Part shown: positions 7,555 to 20,026 of the stretch, piece after piece
Layout of the letters: each line of letters starts with the position of its first letter
How positions within the stretch are numbered: position 1 is the stretch's first letter
NCBI GenBank assembly: GCA_020845955.1
Contig: JADLEU010000108.1
Span: forward strand, 1 to 39,793
DNA: 39,793 nucleotides
Source: Anaerolineales bacterium
GTDB lineage: Bacteria; Chloroflexota; Anaerolineae; Anaerolineales; UBA6663
Reading direction: 5' to 3'
Notes under the pieces: model-generated
What the model was told of the DNA's origin: nothing
Databases searched by the model: none
The model's input: only the letters and a program-made list of their open reading frames with translations
Program-made: the position numbers and the translations under genes

Positions 7555-10398
7555 ATGGAAACCTTGACCGTGAACCTGAAGATCAACGGCCAGCCCTATC
7601 AGGCCACCGTGCCCACCAAAGACAGTCTGCTCGACTATTTGGGCGAGAAACGCCTGAGCCCGGCGATTACCACCCGGCTAAGCCTGCTCAAGACCCTGCG
7701 CGACGATCTGCGCCTGACCGGGACCAAAAACGGCTGCGGCACCAACCACTGCGGCAACTGCCTGGTGCTGGTCAACGGCAAGCCCAAGAAGTCGTGCCTG
7801 CTGCAGATGCGCAGCCTGCAGAATGCCGAGATCGTCACTATCGAGGGCCTGGCCGATAATGGCGGTCTGCACCCCATCCAGGCCGCCTTTATCAACTCCG
7901 GCGGCAGCCAGTGCGGCTTCTGCACGCCAGGTATGATCATGGCCACCAAGGCCCTGCTCGACACCAACCCTAACCCCAGCGAGGCCGAAATCAAGCAGGG
8001 TCTGGAAGACGTCATCTGTCGCTGCACGGGCTACAACAAGATCATCGATGCCGTCAAGCAGGCCGCGCGCGCCCTAGCCCAGGCCGACGAGATCGGCGTG
8101 GTCGAGGCCGGCGGCCTGGGCGCCTCGGTGATGGACTACGACGGCGTGCAGAAGGCCAAGGGCGCCCTGACCTACGCCGACGACCTTTACCTGGACGGCA
8201 TGCTGTACCTCAAGGCCGTGTGGAGCGCTCATCCGCACGCCAACCTGATCGGCGTCGACACCAGCGCGGCCGAGGCCGTGCCGGGCGTGGTGCGCGTGCT
8301 GACCGCCAGAGACGTGCCCGGCGTCAACCGCTTCGGCAACCTCAAGCGCGACCAGCCGGTGCTGGCCGACGACCGTGTGCGCTTCATCGGCGACGCCGTC
8401 GCGCTAGTGGTAGCCGAGAACGACCTGGCAGCCGAGAAGGCTGCCCGCCTGGTGAAGGTGGACTACGAGCCGCTGCCGGGCGTCTTTACGGCGGCCGACG
8501 CCCTCAAGCCCGACGCGCCCCAGCTCTTCCCCGAGGGCAACATCTGCAAGCACCTGGTGCACACCGTCGGCGACCCGGCCCAGGGCCTGGCCCAGGCCGA
8601 CCTGATCGTCGAGGGCCATTTTGAGACCCCTTGGGTGGAGCACGCTTACCTGGAGCCGGAGGCGGGCGTCGCATATTGGGACGACGACCGGTTGGTCATC
8701 AAGACTCCCACCCAGTTCCCCTTCGAGCTGCGCGCCCAACTCTCGGCGATCTTCAACCTACCCGAAGAGCGTGTCCACGTCATCTGCACGCCCGGCGGCG
8801 GCGCCTTTGGCAGCAAAATCGACGGCACGGTCGAGCCGCTGCTCGCGCTGGCCACCTTCGTCACCGGCCGGCCAACCAAGATGACCCTGACCCGCGAGGA
8901 ATCGCTCTTCCGCAGCACAAAGCGTCACCCCTACTACATGGACTATCGCGTGGGCCTCAGCCGCGAGGGCCGCATCCTGGCCGTGGACTGCAAACTGCTG
9001 TCGGACGCCGGCGCCTACACCGATATGAGCCCGCGCGTGATCGATCAGGCTTGCATCTTCGCCTGCGGGCCCTACGAGGTCCTCAACCTCCGCATCGAAG
9101 GCTGGGCGATGTACACCAACAACGTCAAGAGCAGCGCCTTCCGCGGCTTCGGCATCAACCAGGTAGCCTTTGCCATCGAGTCGCTGCTGGACGAGGCGGC
9201 CCGCAAACTGGGCCTCGACCCAATCGAGATGCGGCTGCTTAACTGCCTGCGCCCCGGCAGCAAGACCGCCTCGGGCGAGATCCTGCGCTACAGCGTCGCC
9301 ATCGAAGAGACCCTGGTGGCCGCGCGCGAGGCGCTGACCAAGGACTTGCCGCGCATTCGCCAAATGGTGACGCCCGGCTGGAAGCTCGGCCTGGGCGTGG
9401 CCAGCGGCTTCAAGAACGTCGGCGCCGGCAAGGGCAAGGTCGACGACGCTGGCGCCACCTTCACCTTGCTGCCCGATGGCCGCGTCCAGTTGCGCGTCTC
9501 GGCCGTCGACTTTGGCCAGGGCATCCGCACCACCATGGCTCAGATCGCCCGCGGCGTGCTGCCGCTGCCGCCCGGCGCGCTCGAGGTCATCTCGGGCGAC
9601 ACGGTCCTGACGCACAAGCACGGCGGCGCCGTGGCCGAGCGCCAGACCCTCATCAGCGGCGCGGCGGTGGAGAAGGCCGCTAACCAATTCAAGGACACGC
9701 TGGTGACCAAGGCCGCCGCCATCTGGGAAGTGCCGGTCGACGAGGTCATCCTGGTGCCCGAGGGCGTGGCCGACACGCGCACCGAGCAGCATATGACCCT
9801 GAACGAGCTGGCCAGCGACCTCGACCAGCGCGGCGACAAGGCCGCCTGCAGCTACGTGCACGTGGCCCCCAAGACCTTCGCGCTGGCCGACCACGAAGGC
9901 CGCAAGAGCGTCTCGGCCGAGGACTATCGCAACTACCCGGCCTATGCCTACATCACCCAGGCCTGCGCGTTGGAGGTCAATCCCGAGACGGGCCAGGTGC
10001 GCGTGCTGAAAGTCTGGGCCGCGCACGATGTGGGCCGCGCCATTAATCCGCAGAAGATCGAGGGACAGGTGGAAGGCAGCTGCATGATGGCCATTGGCTA
10101 TGCGCTGTCCGAGGATTACCCGATGGAGAACGGCTTCCCCAAGTTCGCCGATTTCGGCGATTTGGGTGTGCCCACCATCCACGCCACGACGCCGGTCCGG
10201 ACACTGATCATCGAGAAGCCCGACCCGGCCGGCCCGTTTGGCGCCAAGGGCATCTCGGAGGTGGCCACTGTGCCGCTGACCCCGGCGGTGTGCAACGCGA
10301 TCTACGACGCCGTCGGCGTGCGCGTGTACCAGCTCCCGGCCACGCCGGCCCGCCTGCGGGCCGCGCTGCAGGCCCAAGCGGAATATGCCAGTGTGTGA
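7555..10398 (+). CDS. Molybdenum hydroxylase (xanthine dehydrogenase/aldehyde oxidoreductase family) with fused 2Fe-2S domains and no FAD domain
   Basis: This 947-residue protein fuses the small iron-sulfur part and the large molybdopterin part of the xanthine oxidase family, as in Desulfovibrio Mop or the XdhD/Se-dependent group. Plant-type 2Fe-2S ligands are Cys61, 66, 69 and 81; the second cluster uses Cys120, 123, 155 and 157 (QCGFCTPG, CRCTGY). The molybdopterin domain begins near 195 and ends with GPFGAKGISE, whose Glu902 corresponds to the catalytic glutamate. There is no FAD domain, so electrons must leave through a partner. About 17 extra residues sit at 30-47 in the first Fe-S domain. 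AGGAGG at 7542-7547 supports the ATG. Substrate (purine, N-heterocycle or aldehyde) cannot be told; no XdhC-type maturation gene is nearby. Confidence 0.9.
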   Translation: METLTVNLKINGQPYQATVPTKDSLLDYLGEKRLSPAITTRLSLLKTLRDDLRLTGTKNGCGTNHCGNCLVLVNGKPKKSCLLQMRSLQNAEIVTIEGLADNGGLHPIQAAFINSGGSQCGFCTPGMIMATKALLDTNPNPSEAEIKQGLEDVICRCTGYNKIIDAVKQAARALAQADEIGVVEAGGLGASVMDYDGVQKAKGALTYADDLYLDGMLYLKAVWSAHPHANLIGVDTSAAEAVPGVVRVLTARDVPGVNRFGNLKRDQPVLADDRVRFIGDAVALVVAENDLAAEKAARLVKVDYEPLPGVFTAADALKPDAPQLFPEGNICKHLVHTVGDPAQGLAQADLIVEGHFETPWVEHAYLEPEAGVAYWDDDRLVIKTPTQFPFELRAQLSAIFNLPEERVHVICTPGGGAFGSKIDGTVEPLLALATFVTGRPTKMTLTREESLFRSTKRHPYYMDYRVGLSREGRILAVDCKLLSDAGAYTDMSPRVIDQACIFACGPYEVLNLRIEGWAMYTNNVKSSAFRGFGINQVAFAIESLLDEAARKLGLDPIEMRLLNCLRPGSKTASGEILRYSVAIEETLVAAREALTKDLPRIRQMVTPGWKLGLGVASGFKNVGAGKGKVDDAGATFTLLPDGRVQLRVSAVDFGQGIRTTMAQIARGVLPLPPGALEVISGDTVLTHKHGGAVAERQTLISGAAVEKAANQFKDTLVTKAAAIWEVPVDEVILVPEGVADTRTEQHMTLNELASDLDQRGDKAACSYVHVAPKTFALADHEGRKSVSAEDYRNYPAYAYITQACALEVNPETGQVRVLKVWAAHDVGRAINPQKIEGQVEGSCMMAIGYALSEDYPMENGFPKFADFGDLGVPTIHATTPVRTLIIEKPDPAGPFGAKGISEVATVPLTPAVCNAIYDAVGVRVYQLPATPARLRAALQAQAEYASV

Positions 10399-10748: not shown

Positions 10749-12137
10749 ATGAGCAGTTCCGGAAATGGCAATTCACGCGCGGGTATGGGCCAGGTGCCCT
10801 CCACCGTCTACAAGCGCAAGAGCACCCATGCCGATGTGGTGGTGGTCGGCGGCGGCTGGTCGGGCTGCGCGGCGGCTCTGGCGGCCAAGAAGGCTGGCGC
10901 CGAGCGCGTGATCATCCTCGAGCGCACCGACGGCCTACTGGGCACCGGCCTGGTGGGCGGCATCATGCGCAACAACGGCCGCTTCGTGGCCACCGAAGAG
11001 ATGATCGCCCTGGGGGCCGGCGATCTGTTCCAGGTCTGCGACCAGAACGCGCGCCACAGCAACATCGAGTTCCCTGGCCACAAGCACGCCAACTTCTACG
11101 ATGTGGCCCACATCGAGCCGGCGGTGCGCAAATGCCTGCAGGAGTACGGCGTCGAGTTCTGGCTGATCGCGCGCGTCACCAGCGCCCACCGCGAGGGCAC
11201 CAACTTCATCCGCATGGTGGCGCTGGAAAACGGCACCTACGTCTCGGGCGACGTCTTCGTCGACGCCACCGGCACGGTGGGCGCCCAGAGCTTCTGCACC
11301 GAAAACGGCAATGGCTGCGTCATGTGCATTGTGCGCTGCCCCACCTTCGGCCCGCGCGTCAGCTTGGCGGGGTTGGTGGGCATCGCCGAGCGCCAGGGCA
11401 CCCGCTCGGATGGCGGCATCGGAGCCATGAGCGGCTCGTGCAAGCTGGCCAAGGACACCATCCACCCCAGCATCATCGACGAGATGGAGCGCACCGGCGT
11501 GGCCATCGTGCCCATCCCCGAGGCTCTGGTGCACGAGGAGAAACTCGGCCTGAAGGCCTGCCAGCAGTACGCCCTGCCCGAGTACGCGCACAACATCATC
11601 CTGCTCGACACCGGGCAGGTGAAGCTGATGACGTCATACATCCCGCTCGAGCAGCTGCGCCAGATCCCGGGCATGGAGGAGGCGCGCTATCTCGATCCGT
11701 ACTCGGGCACCATCGGCAACTCGATGCGCTACTCGCAACTCTCGCCGCGCGACGACGCCATGCACGTGCGCGGGCCGGTGGACAACCTGTTCTGCGGCGG
11801 CGAGAAGGCGGGCCTGCTGGTGGGCCACACCGAGGCCATGGTCACCGGCTCGGTGGCCGGGCACAACGCCGTGCGCTTCCTGGCCGGCAAGGAGCCGCTG
11901 GTGCTGCCCGACACGCTGGCCACCGGCGACGCCATCACCTACGTGCGCGAGGAGATGGATCGGCCCGGCGGAATGTCCAAGAAGTACACCTTCTCCGGCT
12001 CAGTGCTCTTCCAGCGTATGAAACAGCGTGGCCTGTATGACGGGCCGAAGCCTGAGGTCTACCACGATCGGGTAGCCAAGGCGGGGCTGACCGGCGCGTT
12101 GGCTGAGCAGGTCTATCACAAAGCCAAGGTTATGTAG
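10749..12137 (+). CDS. FAD-dependent oxidoreductase with four-cysteine insert, copy 1
   Basis: A 462-residue flavoprotein with a Rossmann FAD-binding start VVVVGGGWSGCAAALAA (about 30-46), an acidic ERTD end of the ADP-binding fold at 58-61 and a C-terminal FAD motif NLFCGGEKAGLLVGHTEA. It is of the FAD_oxidored/GidA-like fold group, but not a true GidA or TrmFO. Cys183, 190, 193 and 197 form C-x6-C-x2-C-x3-CP, which could hold a [4Fe-4S] cluster. The first 29 residues are a Ser/Gly-rich extension absent from copy 2 (16653-17939). The ferredoxin gene follows one base after its stop, so the two likely form an electron-transfer pair. Its substrate is unknown. Confidence 0.82.
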   Translation: MSSSGNGNSRAGMGQVPSTVYKRKSTHADVVVVGGGWSGCAAALAAKKAGAERVIILERTDGLLGTGLVGGIMRNNGRFVATEEMIALGAGDLFQVCDQNARHSNIEFPGHKHANFYDVAHIEPAVRKCLQEYGVEFWLIARVTSAHREGTNFIRMVALENGTYVSGDVFVDATGTVGAQSFCTENGNGCVMCIVRCPTFGPRVSLAGLVGIAERQGTRSDGGIGAMSGSCKLAKDTIHPSIIDEMERTGVAIVPIPEALVHEEKLGLKACQQYALPEYAHNIILLDTGQVKLMTSYIPLEQLRQIPGMEEARYLDPYSGTIGNSMRYSQLSPRDDAMHVRGPVDNLFCGGEKAGLLVGHTEAMVTGSVAGHNAVRFLAGKEPLVLPDTLATGDAITYVREEMDRPGGMSKKYTFSGSVLFQRMKQRGLYDGPKPEVYHDRVAKAGLTGALAEQVYHKAKVM

Positions 12138-12138
12138 C

Positions 12139-12477
12139 ATGCCGCACATGATCACGGCGGAGTGCATCAACTGCACCGCCTGCGCCACCGACTGCCCTAC
12201 CGAGGCGATTAGCCCAGGGCCGAATCAGTACGTCATCAACCCGAACGTCTGCACCGACTGCGAGGGGTTGTACAACATTCCGAAGTGTTTTCAGGTGTGC
12301 CCGGTGAACGCCTGCGTGCCGCGGCGCGAGCACTACCTGAATAAGATCGCCACCATGGCCACGCGCGGGGCCCGGCCGGTGCGCTACGGGTCGGAGGGCC
12401 CGCTGCCGGAATACGTGGAGGTTGGCTGGTACGAAGAGTCGCCCTTCCTGTTCATGCAGCCGGCCGGAGACGGCTGA
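12139..12477 (+). CDS. 2[4Fe-4S] ferredoxin, copy 1
   Basis: A 112-residue ferredoxin. The first cluster motif is CINCTACATDCP (Cys9, 12, 15, 19). The second is CTDC-x8-CFQVCP (Cys38, 41, 50, 54), the longer spacing seen in Allochromatium/YfhL-type ferredoxins, which usually have very low and unequal potentials. The last 50 residues form an extension without cysteines. It starts one base after the flavoprotein stop and has the same cysteine positions as the second ferredoxin (17942-18400). It probably shuttles electrons between the flavoprotein and the 2-oxoacid oxidoreductase or the molybdenum hydroxylase; this is inferred from position. Confidence 0.9.
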   Translation: MPHMITAECINCTACATDCPTEAISPGPNQYVINPNVCTDCEGLYNIPKCFQVCPVNACVPRREHYLNKIATMATRGARPVRYGSEGPLPEYVEVGWYEESPFLFMQPAGDG

Positions 12478-13112: not shown

Positions 13113-14045
13113 ATGACCGCCCCCGCCCCGCCCACCCAATTGCAGACCTCTTTCATCCTGCGGGAGTACCTCCGTCCGCAGATGCTGCCGTCCACCTGGT
13201 GTCCCGGCTGCGGGCTCGGCATTATCCTGAGCAGCATTGCGCAGGCCGTCCACTTCCGCGGCCTGGCCAAGGACCAGGTGGCCATGGTCTCGGGCATCGG
13301 CTGCACCGGCCGCATGTCGGGCTACGCCGACTTCAACACGCTGCACACCACCCATGGCCGCGCCCCGGCCTTTGCCACCGGCCTTAAGCTGGCCCGGCCA
13401 GAGCTGACCGTGATCACCGTTATGGGCGACGGCGACGCGATGTCCATCGGCGGCAACCACCTGGTGCACGCCATGCGCCGCAACCTGGGCCTGGTCGCGG
13501 TCGTGGTTAACAACAGCGTCTACGGGCTAACCGGCGGGCAGCTCTCGCCCACGACGCCCGTCGGCGGACACACCACTACTGCCCGCGCCGGGTCGTTCGA
13601 GCGGCCGATGAACCTAGAGGCGCTGGCGCGCGCCGCTGGGGCCGCGTTTTTCGCCCGCGCCACGGTCAACCACAGCTTTGGGCTCACCAAGATGGTAGAG
13701 CGCGCGCTGAGCGGTCCGGGCTTTGCTCTGGTGGAAGTCATCAGCAACTGCCACGTGCTCTACGGCAAGATGAACGAGACGCCAGAGGCGGCCGGCATGA
13801 TGATGGCCATGGACGCCAACACCGTGCGCAGCAACCCCACGCTACAGCGCCGCGCGCGCCTGCCGGTGCGGCTGACCGACGCCGAAACCCCGGCTGTGCC
13901 GGCTGCCGACGCCCGGCCGCTGGCCGGCGTGCAGACCGACACGCGCCTGCGCCGGGGCGTGATCTTCGAGCGGCGCGGCCGGGTGGACTACAGCGGGCGC
14001 TATTACGCCCAATCGGCCCCGCCCGGCGACGACGAGGCCGCCTGA
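13113..14045 (+). CDS. korB: 2-oxoacid:ferredoxin oxidoreductase beta subunit (KorB-like)
   Basis: This 310-residue subunit binds thiamine diphosphate and one [4Fe-4S] cluster and decarboxylates a 2-oxoacid, passing electrons to ferredoxin. The cluster ligands are Cys30 and Cys33 (WCPGCG), Cys64 (SGIGC) and Cys213 (SNCHVLYG). The TPP motif runs from GDGD at 105-108 to NN at 133-134. All functional residues are therefore present. The closest group is 2-oxoglutarate-type KorB. The final 60 residues are a Pro/Arg-rich tail longer than in most KorB proteins. The delta subunit gene begins one base after its stop. The true substrate could be 2-oxoglutarate, 2-oxoadipate or another 2-oxoacid. Confidence 0.92.
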   Translation: MTAPAPPTQLQTSFILREYLRPQMLPSTWCPGCGLGIILSSIAQAVHFRGLAKDQVAMVSGIGCTGRMSGYADFNTLHTTHGRAPAFATGLKLARPELTVITVMGDGDAMSIGGNHLVHAMRRNLGLVAVVVNNSVYGLTGGQLSPTTPVGGHTTTARAGSFERPMNLEALARAAGAAFFARATVNHSFGLTKMVERALSGPGFALVEVISNCHVLYGKMNETPEAAGMMMAMDANTVRSNPTLQRRARLPVRLTDAETPAVPAADARPLAGVQTDTRLRRGVIFERRGRVDYSGRYYAQSAPPGDDEAA

Positions 14046-14046
14046 C

Positions 14047-14274
14047 GTGGCCTCGGTCGTGCGTGGCGTCTATCACATCGAGGTCTACCGGGCGTTGTGC
14101 AAGGCCTGCGGACTGTGCACGGCCTGGTGCCCGCAGGCGGTGCTGGAACCCGACGCCGAGGGCTATCCCCTGGCGCCCGGCCTGGCGAACTGTATCAACT
14201 GCAAGCTGTGCGAGCGGCACTGCCCCGACTTCGCCATCGAAGTGTCGCTGGCCGCGGTGGAGAAACGCGCGTGA
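14047..14274 (+). CDS. korD: 2-oxoacid:ferredoxin oxidoreductase delta subunit (2[4Fe-4S] ferredoxin, KorD-like)
   Basis: A 75-residue ferredoxin subunit with two standard motifs, CKACGLCTAWCP (Cys18, 21, 24, 28) and CINCKLCERHCP (Cys49, 52, 55, 59). It carries electrons from the beta-subunit cluster to external ferredoxin. It starts with GTG at 14047, directly behind the beta gene. Its TGA overlaps the GTG of the alpha gene (GTGA at 14271), so translation is coupled. Unlike the separate ferredoxins in this cluster it has normal short C-x2-C-x2-C-x3-C spacing in both motifs, supporting its role as an integral subunit. Confidence 0.9.
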   Translation: MASVVRGVYHIEVYRALCKACGLCTAWCPQAVLEPDAEGYPLAPGLANCINCKLCERHCPDFAIEVSLAAVEKRA

Positions 14275-15416
14275 CCCACATCGCCTTCATGCACGGGAAT
14301 GAGGCCGCCGCCGAAGGCGCCGTCGCCGCCGGCTGCCGCTTCTACGCCGGCTATCCGATCACACCTTCCAGTGAGATCGCCGAGATTCTATCCGGCCGGC
14401 TTCCCGAGGTGGGCGGTGTCTTCATTCAGATGGAAGACGAGATCGCCAGCATGGCGGCCATCATTGGCGCCTCGCTGGGCGGCCTGAAGAGCGCCACCGC
14501 CACGAGCGGCCCGGGCTTCTCGCTGATGCAGGAGAACCTGGGCTTCGCCGTGATGAGCGAAATCCCCTGCGTCGTCGTCAACGTCCAGCGCGTGGGCCCC
14601 AGCACCGGGCTGCCCACCAAGGCCGCGCAGGGCGACGTGATGCAGGCCCGCTGGGGCACCCACGGCGATCACCCCATCATCGCCCTCACCCCTAGCAGCG
14701 CCCAGGAGACCTACCACCTGGCCGTGCGCGCCTTCAACCTGGCTGAGCGCTTCCGCACGCCCGTCATCCTGCTGATGGACGCCATCGTCGCCCAGCTCAA
14801 GGAGAAGGTGGAGGTGCCTGACCCGGCCAGTCTTCAGATCGTGCCGCGCGCCGCGCCGAGCGTGCCGCCTGCCGACTACAAACCCTTCCCCTTTGCGCGC
14901 GGCGAGGTCGGCCCGCTGGCCGTCTTTGGGCAAGGGTATCGCTATCACGTCACCGGGCTGCTGCACGACGAGCACGGCTACCCCACTGAAGACCCCGCGG
15001 TGGTCAGCGCCTGGTGGGAGCACATGGCCACCAAGCTCGACGCCCACCTGGACGAGATCCTGGCTTGGGAAGAGGTGCAGTTGGCCGACGCCGACCTGGC
15101 CCTGGTGGCCTACGGCGGCACGGCCCGCGCCGCCGCGCACGCCGTCACCCTGGCGCGATCCGAAGGGATCAAGCTCGGCCTGCTGCGTCCGATCACGCTC
15201 TGGCCATTCCCCGAAGAGGCCGTTCGCCGGCTGGCCGGCCAGGTGCGCGGCTTCATTGTGCCCGAGCTGAACTTGGGCCAGATCCGCTACGAAGTCGAGC
15301 GCCTGAGCGCCGGCCGCGTGCCGGTGGAGGGCCTCCACCGGGCCGACGGGCTGCAGATCACACCCGACCAGATCGTGAGCGCGGCCCGCGCCGCGCACGC
15401 TCGAGACCAGGCATGA
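14271..15416 (+). CDS. korA: 2-oxoacid:ferredoxin oxidoreductase alpha subunit (KorA-like)
   Basis: A 381-residue alpha subunit with the pyrimidine-binding domain of the TPP site. Motifs are YPITPSSE at 28-35, the MEDE catalytic Glu region at 54-57, TSGPGFSLM at 79-87 and RVGPSTGLPTKAAQGD followed by QARWGTHGDHPI, a hallmark of KorA/VorB proteins. The GTG start at 14271 overlaps the delta stop. There is no N-terminal gamma domain, which is instead supplied by the next gene. The stop overlaps the next ATG (ATGA at 15413). With KorB, KorD and the following fusion protein it forms a complete enzyme. Confidence 0.92.
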   Translation: MTHIAFMHGNEAAAEGAVAAGCRFYAGYPITPSSEIAEILSGRLPEVGGVFIQMEDEIASMAAIIGASLGGLKSATATSGPGFSLMQENLGFAVMSEIPCVVVNVQRVGPSTGLPTKAAQGDVMQARWGTHGDHPIIALTPSSAQETYHLAVRAFNLAERFRTPVILLMDAIVAQLKEKVEVPDPASLQIVPRAAPSVPPADYKPFPFARGEVGPLAVFGQGYRYHVTGLLHDEHGYPTEDPAVVSAWWEHMATKLDAHLDEILAWEEVQLADADLALVAYGGTARAAAHAVTLARSEGIKLGLLRPITLWPFPEEAVRRLAGQVRGFIVPELNLGQIRYEVERLSAGRVPVEGLHRADGLQITPDQIVSAARAAHARDQA

Positions 15417-16660
15417 CCTACGACCGGCACTTTGCCACCAACTGGCAACTGCTGCTCGACGCCATCTGCACCACCATGATGCTGGCGCCGGAGCGCGAGC
15501 CGCCCATCGTCTTGTCGAGCCTGGCCGACCTGCCTTACGAGGTGGGCCAGGCCAGCGGGCGGGCGCCGCTTTCGTTCATCCAGGGGCCGCCAGGCCGCAA
15601 CATCGCCCTGGCCATCGGGCTGCGCGCGGCGCTGCCCGCCACGCCGCTGGTCCTGATCATGTCGGCCGACAGCGTCACGCTGGGCACCAATCACCTGATC
15701 CACGCCGCGCGCCGCAACATCGGCATGACCCTGCTGCTGCTGCGCTCCGACGTAACCGCGGGCGCGGCGCCCGGCAGCCAGGACCGTATGGATTGGACCC
15801 AGCCTTATTATCAGCCGGACCTGGAAAGCGCGCCGGCCCCGCTGGCCTGGCTGACGGCCCTCGACGCCGCCCTGGTGGGCCGCGCCTCGCTGCGCGACCC
15901 TGACGGCCTGGCCGAGCTGATCCACACCGCCATCGAAACCAAAGGGTTCGGCGTGCTGGGCGTTACCACCGACGCCCGGTTGGAAATCGGGATCCTCAGC
16001 CGGTCGGAGTGGCCCGAGTATTTCGACGCCTACCGCGCCTGGACCGCGGGCCTGGCGGCGCCGGCCGCGCGCGCGGCCGGCGCCGCACCGGCCCGGCCCG
16101 CGCGTCGCGTGCCGCGCTGCGCCTTGCGCATCGCCGGCTTGGGCGGCCATGGTATCAAGCTGGCCGGAACGGTGCTCAGCGAGGCCCTCGGCCGCCACGA
16201 GGGGCTGTGGACCACCCAGCGCGGCGAGTATGGCTCGGCCACGCGCGGCGGCCCCAGCCTGGTGGACGTCATCGCCGGGAGCGACCCGATCACCTACCCC
16301 GGCGCCGACCAGCCCGACGTGCTGGTGCTGCTGAGCCAGGCGGCCGCCCAGCGTTACGCCGGCAGCGAGCGGCCCGGCGCCGTGCTGGTGGCCGATCCCG
16401 GCGAGGTCGACCCCCTGCCCCCCGGCGCCGCGCCGGTGCCCATCACGGCCCTGGCGCGCGAGCACGTCGGCGCGCCGATCGCGGCCGGCATGGTCGCTCT
16501 GGGCTGCGTGGCCGCGCTGACTGAGATTGTGTCGTTGACCGCACTGCGGCTGAGCCTGGCCGGGCACGTGCCCCAGCGCCTGGTGGCGCGCAACCAGGCC
16601 GCGCTGGAAGCCGGCTACGCGGCCGCCCAGGCCGCCCGTGAAGGAGCACAACATGGCTAG
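15413..16660 (+). CDS. Fusion of a degenerate second beta domain with the gamma subunit of 2-oxoacid:ferredoxin oxidoreductase
   Basis: This 415-residue protein has two parts. Residues 1-210 align by eye along the length of KorB, sharing for example NHLIHAARRNIG, but all four cluster cysteines are gone. GDGD has become SADS (84-87) and NN has become RSD (111-113), so it can bind neither TPP-Mg nor a cluster in the normal way. After an Ala/Pro/Arg linker (211-234), residues 235-415 are a regular gamma domain (RIAGLGGHGIKLAGTVL, then RGEYGSATRGG), which normally supports CoA binding and electron transfer. It overlaps the alpha gene by four bases and the next flavoprotein gene by eight. The first domain is probably structural or regulatory. 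Confidence 0.88.
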   Translation: MTYDRHFATNWQLLLDAICTTMMLAPEREPPIVLSSLADLPYEVGQASGRAPLSFIQGPPGRNIALAIGLRAALPATPLVLIMSADSVTLGTNHLIHAARRNIGMTLLLLRSDVTAGAAPGSQDRMDWTQPYYQPDLESAPAPLAWLTALDAALVGRASLRDPDGLAELIHTAIETKGFGVLGVTTDARLEIGILSRSEWPEYFDAYRAWTAGLAAPAARAAGAAPARPARRVPRCALRIAGLGGHGIKLAGTVLSEALGRHEGLWTTQRGEYGSATRGGPSLVDVIAGSDPITYPGADQPDVLVLLSQAAAQRYAGSERPGAVLVADPGEVDPLPPGAAPVPITALAREHVGAPIAAGMVALGCVAALTEIVSLTALRLSLAGHVPQRLVARNQAALEAGYAAAQAAREGAQHG

Positions 16661-17939
16661 AGTCGTGATCGTTGGCGGCGGGTGGGCCGGCTGCGCCGCG
16701 GCCCTCACCGCGCGCCAGGCCGGCGCCGATGAGGTGCTGGTGCTGGAGCGCACCGACAGCCTGCTGGGCACTGGCCTAGTGGGCGGCATCATGCGCAACA
16801 ACGGCCGCTTCACCGCCGCCGAGGAAATGGCCGCGCTGGGCGCGGGCGAGTTGTTCGTGATTGCCGACGCCGCCGCCCGCCACCGCAACGTGGCCTTCCC
16901 CGGCCACCAGCACGCCACGCTGTACGACGTGGCCATCATCGAGCCGGCCGTGCGCCAGGCCGTGCTGGCCCACGGCGCCGAGGTCTGGCTGATGAGCCGC
17001 GTGACGGGCATCGCCCGCAGCAACGGGTCGTTGAGCGCCGTCCAACTGGAGAACGGCACCCTGATTGAGGGCGACGCCTTCATCGACACAACCGGCACGG
17101 TCGGGTCGCAGAGCTTCTGCACCGAGCACGGCAACGGCTGCGTGATGTGCGTCGCGCGCTGCCCAACGTTTGGCCCGCGCACTAGCCTCACCGGCCTGGC
17201 CGGCATCCCCGAGCGCTCGGGCAAGCGGGCCGACGGCGGCATCGGCGCCATGAGCGGCTCGTGCAAGCTCAATAAAGACACGGTCGCCCGCGACCTGCTG
17301 CGTCGGCTGGAGAACGCCGGCGTGCTGGTCATCCCGTTGCCCCGGCACCTGGTCAATCTGCACAAGCTGGGGGGCAAGGCCTGCCAGCAATACGCCTCGG
17401 CCGAGTTTGCCGAGAACGTCGTGCTGCTCGACACCGGGCAGATCAAGCTGATGACGTCGTATATGCCCCTGGAACAGCTTCGGCAAGTGCCCGGGCTAGA
17501 GAACGTGCGTTACGAGGACCCGTACTCGGGCACGGTGGGCAACTCGATGCGCTACTCGCAACTCTCCCCGCGTGATGACAGCCTGCGCGTGCTGGGCGGC
17601 CCCGAAAACGTGTTCTGCGGCGGCGAGAAGGCCGGCCTGCTGGTGGGCCACACCGAGGCCATCGTCACCGGCGCGCTGGCCGGGCACAACGCCGTGCGCC
17701 ACCTGGCGGGCAAGCAGCCCCTGGTGCTGCCCGATACGCTGGCCTGCGGCGACGCCATCGGCCACGTGCGCGCGGCGATGGAGACCGAGGCTGGCCTGAC
17801 CAAGAAGTACACCTTTTCGGGCTCGGTCTACTTCGAGCGCATGCTGGCCCGCGGCCTGTACACCACCGACCTGGAGGTCATCGCGGCGCGCGTGGCCGCT
17901 GCCGGGCTGGCCAACGTTTACCAGCAGCGGGTGTTGTAG
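16653..17939 (+). CDS. FAD-dependent oxidoreductase with four-cysteine insert, copy 2
   Basis: A 428-residue paralog of the flavoprotein at 10749-12137, similar over nearly its whole length. The FAD fold begins at residue 4 (VVIVGGGWAGC), the cysteine motif is Cys156, 163, 166, 170 (C-x6-C-x2-C-x3-CP), and the C-terminal FAD motif VFCGGEKAGLLVGHTEA is near-identical. It lacks the Ser/Gly extension of copy 1. The ATG at 16653 is chosen because AAGGAG lies six bases upstream; a GTG at 16638 would overlap that site. It is translationally coupled to the oxidoreductase fusion gene, placing it in the same operon. Role: probable electron exchange with the ferredoxin that follows. Confidence 0.82.
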   Translation: MARVVIVGGGWAGCAAALTARQAGADEVLVLERTDSLLGTGLVGGIMRNNGRFTAAEEMAALGAGELFVIADAAARHRNVAFPGHQHATLYDVAIIEPAVRQAVLAHGAEVWLMSRVTGIARSNGSLSAVQLENGTLIEGDAFIDTTGTVGSQSFCTEHGNGCVMCVARCPTFGPRTSLTGLAGIPERSGKRADGGIGAMSGSCKLNKDTVARDLLRRLENAGVLVIPLPRHLVNLHKLGGKACQQYASAEFAENVVLLDTGQIKLMTSYMPLEQLRQVPGLENVRYEDPYSGTVGNSMRYSQLSPRDDSLRVLGGPENVFCGGEKAGLLVGHTEAIVTGALAGHNAVRHLAGKQPLVLPDTLACGDAIGHVRAAMETEAGLTKKYTFSGSVYFERMLARGLYTTDLEVIAARVAAAGLANVYQQRVL

Positions 17940-17941
17940 CC

Positions 17942-18400
17942 GTGGCCTACATGATCACCGCCGAGTGCATCAACTGCGGCGCCTGCGAACTCGACTGCCC
18001 AGTGCGCGCTATCACCCCGGCGCCGAGCCAGTTTCGGATCGACCCGATGGTGTGCATGGAATGCGACGGCTACTACCCGGTGCCGCGCTGCCAATGGGTT
18101 TGCCCCGTCAGCGCCTGCGCGCCCGAGCGCGAGAGCTATCTGTTCAAGGCTCGCGCGCTGACCAACCGCGGCGCCCCGCCGGTGGTCCTGCGCGCCGCGC
18201 CACCCGCCGAAACGCCCGCGATTCTGCAGGGCCGCCTGGACCGGCTGCAAAAGCAGCTGGCGCTGGTGACTAACAAAGAAACCCGCGCCGAGCTGCGCTA
18301 CGCCATGGCCAAGCTCCAATGGCAGCTCGGCCAGATCACCGACGCCGAGTTCGCCGAGATCGAGAAGTTCTACGAGAACTTTACTTACGAATGGTGCTGA
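17942..18400 (+). CDS. 2[4Fe-4S] ferredoxin with helical C-terminal tail, copy 2
   Basis: A 152-residue paralog of the first ferredoxin with identical cysteine positions: Cys9, 12, 15, 19 and Cys38, 41, 50, 54, the second motif again having the x8 spacing. From about residue 90 it carries a tail not found in copy 1. The tail is two charged, leucine-rich helices (LQGRLDRLQKQLALV and RAELRYAMAKLQWQL), then DAEFAEIEKFY and a final Cys152. This looks like a helical hairpin for docking or dimerisation. It begins with GTG two bases after the flavoprotein stop, and the MAYMITAECINC start matches copy 1. Confidence 0.87.
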   Translation: MAYMITAECINCGACELDCPVRAITPAPSQFRIDPMVCMECDGYYPVPRCQWVCPVSACAPERESYLFKARALTNRGAPPVVLRAAPPAETPAILQGRLDRLQKQLALVTNKETRAELRYAMAKLQWQLGQITDAEFAEIEKFYENFTYEWC

Positions 18401-18502: not shown

Positions 18503-20026
18503 ATGAAGGCCTTACTTGACAAGCTGAAGATCGAACCAGTCAATCCCGGGGCCTGCACCGGCCCGGACGGCTGGATCAGCGATCCTGAAGGTAAGCCGCT
18601 GGTGTCGTATAACCCGGCCACCGGCGAGCCGATTGCCAGCATCACCCAGGCGTCGGCCACGACCTACGAGGCTGTGCTGCGCCAGGCGGCCGGCGCCTTC
18701 CGCACCTGGCAGACCGTGCCCGCGCCGCAGCGCGGCGCCGTCGTGCGCGACCTGGGCACGATCCTGCGCGAATACCAGGCACCGTTGGGTGAGCTGGTAA
18801 GCCTGGAGATGGGCAAGATCCGCCCGGAGGGCCTCGGCGAAGTGCAGGAGATGATCGACATCTGCGACTTTGCCGTGGGGTTGTCGCGCCAGTTGTACGG
18901 CGTCACCACCCACAGCGAGCGCCCCGGCCACCGCATGTACGAGCAGTGGCACCCGCTGGGCATCGTCGGCATCATCACCGCCTTCAACTTCCCCACCGCG
19001 GTTTGGAGCTGGAACGCCGCCATTGCCGCCGCCTGCGGCGACACCATGGTCTGGAAGCCGGCCTCGGCCGTGCCGCTGTGCGCCATCGCCGTGCAGCACT
19101 TGGTGAACCAGGTGGCCGGCGACCACCACCTGAACGGGGTCTTCAACCTGCTGGTCGGAAGCGGCAGCGTCATCGGCGAACGCATGCTCAACGACACTCG
19201 CGTCCCGCTGATCTCCTTCACCGGCTCGGTTTCCATGGGTCGGCACGTGGCCGAGACGGTGGCCCGCCGGCTGGGCCGCACCATCCTGGAGCTGGGCGGC
19301 AACAACGGCATCATCGTCACCGAAGACGCCGACCTGGCCTTGGTCACACGCGCCATCTTGTTCGGCGCGGTGGGCACCGCCGGGCAGCGCTGCACCAGCA
19401 CACGCCGCATCATCGTGCACAAGTCCATCGCCGCCGACCTGACCGAGCGCCTCAAGCGCGCCTACGCCCAGGTGACCATCGGCAACCCCCTGGACGACGG
19501 CATCCTGATGGGGCCGCTGGTCGAAGAGCAGGCCGTCACCGACATGTTTGCCGCGCTGGAGCGCGTCAAACAAGAAGGCGGCGAGATCGTCACGGGCGGC
19601 AGCCGCCTGCCCGACAAGGGTCCGTGCTTCGTCGAGCCCACAATTGTCAAAATGCCGCGCCAGACGTCGATGGTCTGCGAAGAGACCTTCGCCCCGATCC
19701 TGTACTTGATGGAATACGGCACCCTGGACGAGGCTATCGCCATTCACAACGGCGTGCCGCAGGGCCTGTCGAGCGCCATGTTCACCACCAACCTGCTCTC
19801 GTCCGAGCGCTTCCTCTCGGCCACGGGCTCCGACGCTGGTATGGCTAACATCAACGTCGGCACCAGCGGCGCTGAGATCGGGCTGGGCTTCGGAGGCGAA
19901 AAGGAGACCGGCGGCGGGCGCGAGAGCGGGTCAGACGCCTGGAAGGTCTACATGCGCCGGCAGTCCAACGTCATCAACTGGTCGCGTGACCTGCCCCTGG
20001 CGCAGGGGATCAAGTTCGGCGATTAA
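18503..20026 (+). CDS. Aldehyde dehydrogenase, ALDH7 (antiquitin/AASA dehydrogenase-like) family
   Basis: A 507-residue NAD(P)-dependent aldehyde dehydrogenase. Catalytic residues are Asn162 (FNFP), Lys185 (WKPA), Glu263 (LELGGNN) and Cys297 (GTAGQRCTSTRR). The ELGGNN form and the end motif NVGTSGAEIG...GGEKETGGGRESGSD are typical of ALDH7A1/AmaB, which oxidise alpha-aminoadipate semialdehyde to alpha-aminoadipate in lysine breakdown. AAGGAG at 18486-18491 precedes the ATG by 11 bases. It starts a three-gene group with the SDR and the DAO-type oxidase. Family membership is firm; the exact aldehyde is inferred, since ALDH7 enzymes can also take betaine aldehyde and fatty aldehydes. Confidence 0.9.
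   Translation: MKALLDKLKIEPVNPGACTGPDGWISDPEGKPLVSYNPATGEPIASITQASATTYEAVLRQAAGAFRTWQTVPAPQRGAVVRDLGTILREYQAPLGELVSLEMGKIRPEGLGEVQEMIDICDFAVGLSRQLYGVTTHSERPGHRMYEQWHPLGIVGIITAFNFPTAVWSWNAAIAAACGDTMVWKPASAVPLCAIAVQHLVNQVAGDHHLNGVFNLLVGSGSVIGERMLNDTRVPLISFTGSVSMGRHVAETVARRLGRTILELGGNNGIIVTEDADLALVTRAILFGAVGTAGQRCTSTRRIIVHKSIAADLTERLKRAYAQVTIGNPLDDGILMGPLVEEQAVTDMFAALERVKQEGGEIVTGGSRLPDKGPCFVEPTIVKMPRQTSMVCEETFAPILYLMEYGTLDEAIAIHNGVPQGLSSAMFTTNLLSSERFLSATGSDAGMANINVGTSGAEIGLGFGGEKETGGGRESGSDAWKVYMRRQSNVINWSRDLPLAQGIKFGD

Follow-up and report, generated by a model that had tools for sequence, protein, structure and literature searches.

A conserved beta-type domain without cofactor ligands is fused to the gamma subunit of a predicted 2-oxoacid:ferredoxin oxidoreductase

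2-Oxoacid:ferredoxin oxidoreductases (OFORs) are central to anaerobic carbon metabolism and are described as symmetric dimers with TPP and a cluster in each beta domain. The stretch of Anaerolineales DNA analysed here (39,793 nucleotides, hereafter the window) carries an OFOR operon in which the gamma subunit is preceded, within a single open reading frame of 415 codons plus stop (15413-16660, plus strand), by a homologue of the beta subunit that lacks the Mg-TPP and [4Fe-4S] ligands. This pseudo-beta domain (residues 1-213; 15413..16051) is joined to a gamma (KorC, domain III) domain (residues 235-410; 16115..16660, including the stop codon) by an Ala/Pro-rich linker of about 22 residues, which is poorly conserved in the alignment and has no family match (residues 214-234; 16052..16114). 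Pseudo-beta is probably a structural or regulatory part that exists beside an active beta copy. We consider it fairly likely that the domain is a non-catalytic module, tethered via gamma to a complex with active alpha and separate beta subunits, and that it shapes the assembly or activity of this complex.

The initial annotation of the window had noted that residues 1-210 parallel KorB. This relationship was confirmed by Pfam, TIGRFAM, BLASTP and PDB profile comparisons; the domain spans about residues 1-213. The domain matches TPP_enzyme_C (PF02775) above the gathering score (1.6e-6) and PorB_KorB (TIGR02177) at 5.5e-13, although its 49.1 bits do not reach the curated cut-off of 261.9 bits, and it matches the KorB encoded in the same window at 5e-12 by BLASTP. 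When the three fusion domains known to us were combined into a profile and compared with the PDB, this profile recovered OFOR beta chains and little else, as evident by the matches to Helicobacter OorB (8ys5_C, 6.3e-17) and 5b46_B (6.1e-12). An AlphaFold model of pseudo-beta alone, built from seven aligned rows (pLDDT 70, pTM 0.75), likewise finds OFOR beta chains as its top Foldseek and VIA-align matches, with a Z score of 17.5 over 177 residues to 5b47_B. Because KorB rows were included in the alignment used for modelling, which leans the result towards a beta fold, this model supports the sequence comparisons but is not fully independent of them. A model of the full-length fusion was set aside (pLDDT 47). 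Judged by these profile and fold searches, which were also proposed as a means of refuting the relationship and instead uphold it, residues 1-213 are homologous to the OFOR beta subunit (domain VI). We could not name a source for the domain, since its stem in the beta tree is about 7 changes per site long and meets other long branches.

The residues on which catalysis by a beta subunit depends are absent from this domain. In StOFOR from Sulfolobus, the ligands of the TPP-bound Mg are GDG 89b-91b and Asn118b (PMC5020499), and they align with a gap followed by S/N84 and A85, and with S112, of the fusions. As the initial annotation had read from the sequence, GDGD is replaced by SADS (84-87) and NN by RS (111-112) in the window, and all four cysteines that hold the proximal [4Fe-4S] cluster (Cys30, 33, 64 and 213 of P0002) have been replaced or deleted. 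Across all three fusions, the Mg-TPP ligand positions read SAD or NAD, and RS. The TPP loop YG(M/L)TGGQxSPTT is shortened and rewritten, with 30% identity between lineages. Among the loci examined, the fusion is the only beta-like open reading frame without GDG, apart from a fragment at a contig end (L017).

A more general comparison is provided by the 49 beta columns that are at least 90% conserved among 79 homologues. Pseudo-beta keeps 17 of these, and none of the 17 is a Mg or cluster ligand. Most of the kept columns fall around the GR helix (58-75, with columns at P0001 61-75) and a helix that follows the old GDGD position (89-104); among them are Asp86/Gly91, His97, Ala98 and Arg101. Asp86, the second Asp of GDGD, is present in all three fusions and is the one feature that favors a TPP site that has been rebuilt but still works. 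However, the Asp and Asn ligands of Mg have become S/N and S, the cysteines are gone, and the cut TPP loop is variable, such that we regard a working site as exceedingly improbable. The family alignment of the fusions against beta homologues, in which a working replacement TPP site would have spoken against a dead domain, contains none. Pseudo-beta also lacks the C-terminal part of beta, which in StOFOR extends over the other protomer (PMC5020499). Without this arm, the domain is no straight stand-in for beta.

The operon that contains the fusion has one gene each for intact alpha, active beta, dicluster delta and the fusion itself. The KorB encoded at 13113..14045 (plus strand), previously taken to be the active copy, indeed retains every motif (CxxC, GDGD, NN and TGGQxSPTT) and matches the beta chain of Helicobacter pylori OorDABC (8ys5_C) at 1.8e-65. 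It is followed on the same strand by a delta subunit, a 2x[4Fe-4S] ferredoxin by family match (14047..14274), and by KorA (14271..15416), which has YPITP and the region of the TPP-activating Glu and scores above the NF006412 cut-off. Of the columns that are 95% conserved in other loci, the separate beta subunit of the three fusion operons retains 70 of 74 and alpha retains 69 of 73. Therefore, only the fused copy of beta is dead. The ATG of the fusion and the stop codon of KorA share an ATGA overlap that is identical in the other two loci. A 719-residue open reading frame on the minus strand (15287-17446) was rejected as a gene, as it shows no coding evidence and the plus-strand genes that overlie it have homologues, which is typical of a shadow frame in GC-rich DNA. 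A GYD-domain protein (PF08734; 12637-12969) is encoded between the first ferredoxin of the window and KorB.

The second half of the fusion had been described as a normal gamma domain at residues 235-415. Its identity and its fusion stand, as evident by the PF01558 (POR domain) match at residues 244-403 (8.7e-29, 101.3 bits against a gathering score of 27.4), but the domain is not wholly normal. The gamma loop GGQG, which has Q in each of 55 other gammas, carries H instead in all three fusions. This change to GGHG may be connected with the remodelling that produced pseudo-beta. The subunits otherwise resemble those of four-subunit OFORs (KorABCD, or OorDABC of Helicobacter pylori, 8ys5; compare the two-subunit Magnetococcus OGOR, 6n2n), which have the same alpha, beta, delta and PF01558 gamma. 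The gamma in our operon differs from theirs by its extra, ligand-free beta domain and by GGHG in place of GGQG.

A scan of 84,980 species genomes, the survey that the initial annotation had suggested, yielded two relatives of the fusion (L023 and L024), both from Anaerolineae MAGs and 54% identical over the whole protein. The fusion is thus known from three genomes that represent two independent lineages, the window and L023/L024. It is absent from five further genomes that belong to the family of the window. A pseudo-beta profile was also run over overlapping genome sets drawn from the order (400 genomes), the class (396), the relatives of genome G759 (200) and the phylum (400). The three members score 400-437 bits, whereas the other hits are ordinary KorBs and none of them exceeds 73 bits. 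No relative of the fusion was found on viral contigs, where scans with the KorB and KorC profiles returned one unrelated KorB and nothing, respectively. A lone intact KorB-like gene (L101 2962-3843) sits among phage-like neighbors on IMGVR_UViG_3300001528_000662, a contig of 63.5 kb with a viral classification, and no alpha or gamma was seen close to it.

In all three loci, the orthologous gene order is ABC transporter, MFS, beta, delta, alpha, fusion, FAD protein, ferredoxin, ALDH and SDR. Conservation of the fusion in other genomes indicates that it is neither an assembly error nor a dying gene. Between L023 and L024, dN/dS is 0.072 for pseudo-beta, 0.079 for gamma and 0.124 for the separate beta subunit. 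The dN is 0.43 for pseudo-beta versus 0.20 for beta, a roughly twofold faster change. Between the two lineages, three segments of pseudo-beta stand out, namely residues 58-75 (89% identity), 89-104 (100%) and 105-115 (82%), while identity elsewhere is 17-58%. When pooled, about 91% of the 45 segment positions are identical, compared with about 42% of the remaining 168. The equivalent segments of the active beta are not outstanding. By these sequence comparisons, the most constrained part of pseudo-beta is the rim of what was the diphosphate pocket, where the letters have changed from those of beta. The low dN/dS, together with the near identity of three segments around this pocket, shows that pseudo-beta is under purifying selection and is being maintained, not decaying.

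These data bear on two other interpretations. The domain could be a relic of a beta-gamma fusion whose redundant beta part is decaying, as its faster evolution relative to beta and the presence of intact beta-gamma fusions in the same order (below) might suggest. However, we find this very unlikely given the dN/dS value, the retention of a full domain with identical motif losses at 54% identity, and the position of the fusion gamma apart from the gammas of those intact fusions. Alternatively, the diphosphate pocket might have been rebuilt for another, perhaps anionic, ligand through which pseudo-beta regulates the enzyme. The pocket rim (QGPPGRN, ADxxTLGTNH and LLRSDVT) is the best conserved part of the domain even though its letters differ from those of beta, but a surface for protein contacts would explain this equally well and only two lineages are available for comparison. 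We therefore view a ligand sensor as unlikely.

The explanation that we favor places the fusion as the gamma subunit of an alpha-beta-gamma-delta OFOR, with a second beta-type (domain VI) module in front. Gamma is an integral OFOR subunit, and no separate gamma gene is present in the fusion-bearing operons, such that pseudo-beta would enter the complex together with gamma, anchored to the enzyme as one copy per gamma. Catalysis would be conducted by alpha and the separate intact beta, with electrons leaving via the beta cluster and delta. In TPP enzymes, PP-type domains contact their PYR-type partners through one face, which pseudo-beta is predicted to keep along with the beta fold and the two helices on either side of the former diphosphate pocket. 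Through this face it could bind a new ligand or a partner, which would most simply be alpha, the partner of beta, and thereby shape assembly or activity. Presence in the complex, binding through the old face and an effect on the enzyme are all inferred. The conserved helices may be kept for folding only, a point that counts against this explanation.

The initial annotation had proposed that the complex has one active and one pseudo beta, perhaps as an asymmetric scaffold or a changed CoA or substrate gate. The homology, the lost ligands, the fusion and the separate active beta behind this proposal are supported, while the asymmetry and any part in gating are conjectural. How such a module would be arranged can be considered in at least two ways. 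Pseudo-beta might take the place of beta on one alpha, creating an asymmetric alpha2-beta-pseudobeta/gamma-delta enzyme with one active and one silent site. The kept GR helix and helix 89-104 flank the beta-alpha-facing site, and alpha, beta, the fusion and delta are each encoded by a single gene. Moreover, the OFOR dimer interface is built from domains I, II and VI, and the TPP sites of the dimer are 16.5 A from one another, which might allow cross-talk (PMC5020499). This arrangement is nevertheless doubtful, because each dimer would then have a single gamma and a single delta, as in no known OFOR, and because pseudo-beta is missing the C-terminal arm. In broader terms, the proposition that pseudo-beta either fills one of two TPP sites in such a half-of-sites enzyme or holds a regulatory ligand in a rebuilt pocket strikes us as possible, though on balance somewhat improbable.

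The second arrangement is a symmetric (alpha beta delta pseudobeta/gamma)2 complex, in which pseudo-beta lies next to gamma at the wing and docks a partner, for example the FAD oxidoreductase or ferredoxin encoded alongside. The wings, formed by gamma (domain III), are exposed (PMC5020499). Gamma is normally present 1:1 with alpha. In all three genomes, genes for an FAD-dependent oxidoreductase (16653..17939 in the window, plus strand) and a YfhL-like 2x[4Fe-4S] ferredoxin (17942..18400, plus strand), both assigned by family match and shared gene order, lie directly 3' of the fusion. Relatives of the FAD protein (58-62% identity) occur in nine other genomes of the class sample. In the two of these that were inspected (G496 and G404), the genes for molybdenum hydroxylase, FAD protein and transporter form a cluster that adjoins an OFOR with intact beta and a free GGQG gamma, whose delta and alpha are fused (L119 404-1843; L120 17492-18922). 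FAD docking therefore does not need pseudo-beta, which counts against the outer position, and we regard this arrangement as possible but somewhat improbable. An obligatory link between pseudo-beta and the FAD oxidoreductase was rejected, since the relatives stand beside an ordinary OFOR, as in these two genomes, or where no OFOR was seen. The occurrence of an OFOR with free gamma in related clusters indicates that pseudo-beta is an add-on.

Several features of this neighborhood deserve mention. In the window, a pair of FAD oxidoreductase and YfhL-like ferredoxin genes occurs twice and flanks the OFOR (10749-12477 and 16653-18400; 67% and 57% identity), and a single pair is seen in L023 and L024. 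The association of molybdenum hydroxylase (7555-10398) with FAD protein (10749-12137) recurs in the class (L113 and L115) along with ABC transporter, MFS and DapA-like genes, suggestive of a putative catabolic module. The aldehyde dehydrogenase encoded at 18503-20026 scores above the NCBIfam cut-off for L-piperidine-6-carboxylate (piperideine-6-carboxylate) dehydrogenase, and L023 carries a glutaryl-CoA-dehydrogenase-like gene. These gene families hint at 2-oxoadipate or 2-oxoglutarate as the OFOR substrate.

Additional or rearranged subunits are known from other OFORs. The five-subunit enzymes of Aquificaceae (Aquifex, Hydrogenobacter) carry an extra delta subunit that is reported to resemble CODH/ACS epsilon (PMC10052474). 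Like pseudo-beta, this is an additional subunit, but its reported similarity is to epsilon and not to beta; a Pfam search of the fusion at E values up to 1 shows no CODH/ACS epsilon family. In the alpha-beta-gamma oxalate oxidoreductase of Moorella, gamma comprises domains III-V with a ferredoxin domain as the fusion partner (PMC5020499). The gamma-type subunit is fused there as well, with the ferredoxin domain in the place of our beta copy. Pseudo-enzyme subunits are well known in kinases and elsewhere. We found no description of an inactive or pseudo beta subunit of an OFOR in the open-access literature, most subscription papers being outside the scope of the search. This weakly suggests that a pseudo-enzyme subunit, limited so far to two lineages, may be new to the OFOR family, and it would extend the concept to a TPP/Fe-S enzyme. 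A conserved dead beta locked to gamma also offers a natural test of whether both sites must work, whether they communicate, and what gamma contributes.

Two genomes of the same order encode the intact beta-gamma fusions mentioned above (L025 5297-6994 and L026 4917-6479). As in our fusion, beta precedes gamma in one chain, but the beta part retains GDGD, NN and the cysteines, and the linker is longer. Derivation of the pseudo-beta/gamma fusion from these proteins is not supported by the gamma tree, in which their gammas fall in another clade and the fusion gamma groups with unfused KorC (SH-aLRT support only, with long branches). Given the different clades, the pseudo-beta/gamma fusion probably arose separately. 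Each of the intact fusions has another OFOR and a gene for a flavoprotein beside it. The converse case is seen in L027 (4551-5879; G049:C60), where an intact KorB is fused to an apparently degenerate gamma in which GAAGTKIGSAG replaces GxGGQG and much of the domain is unrecognizable.
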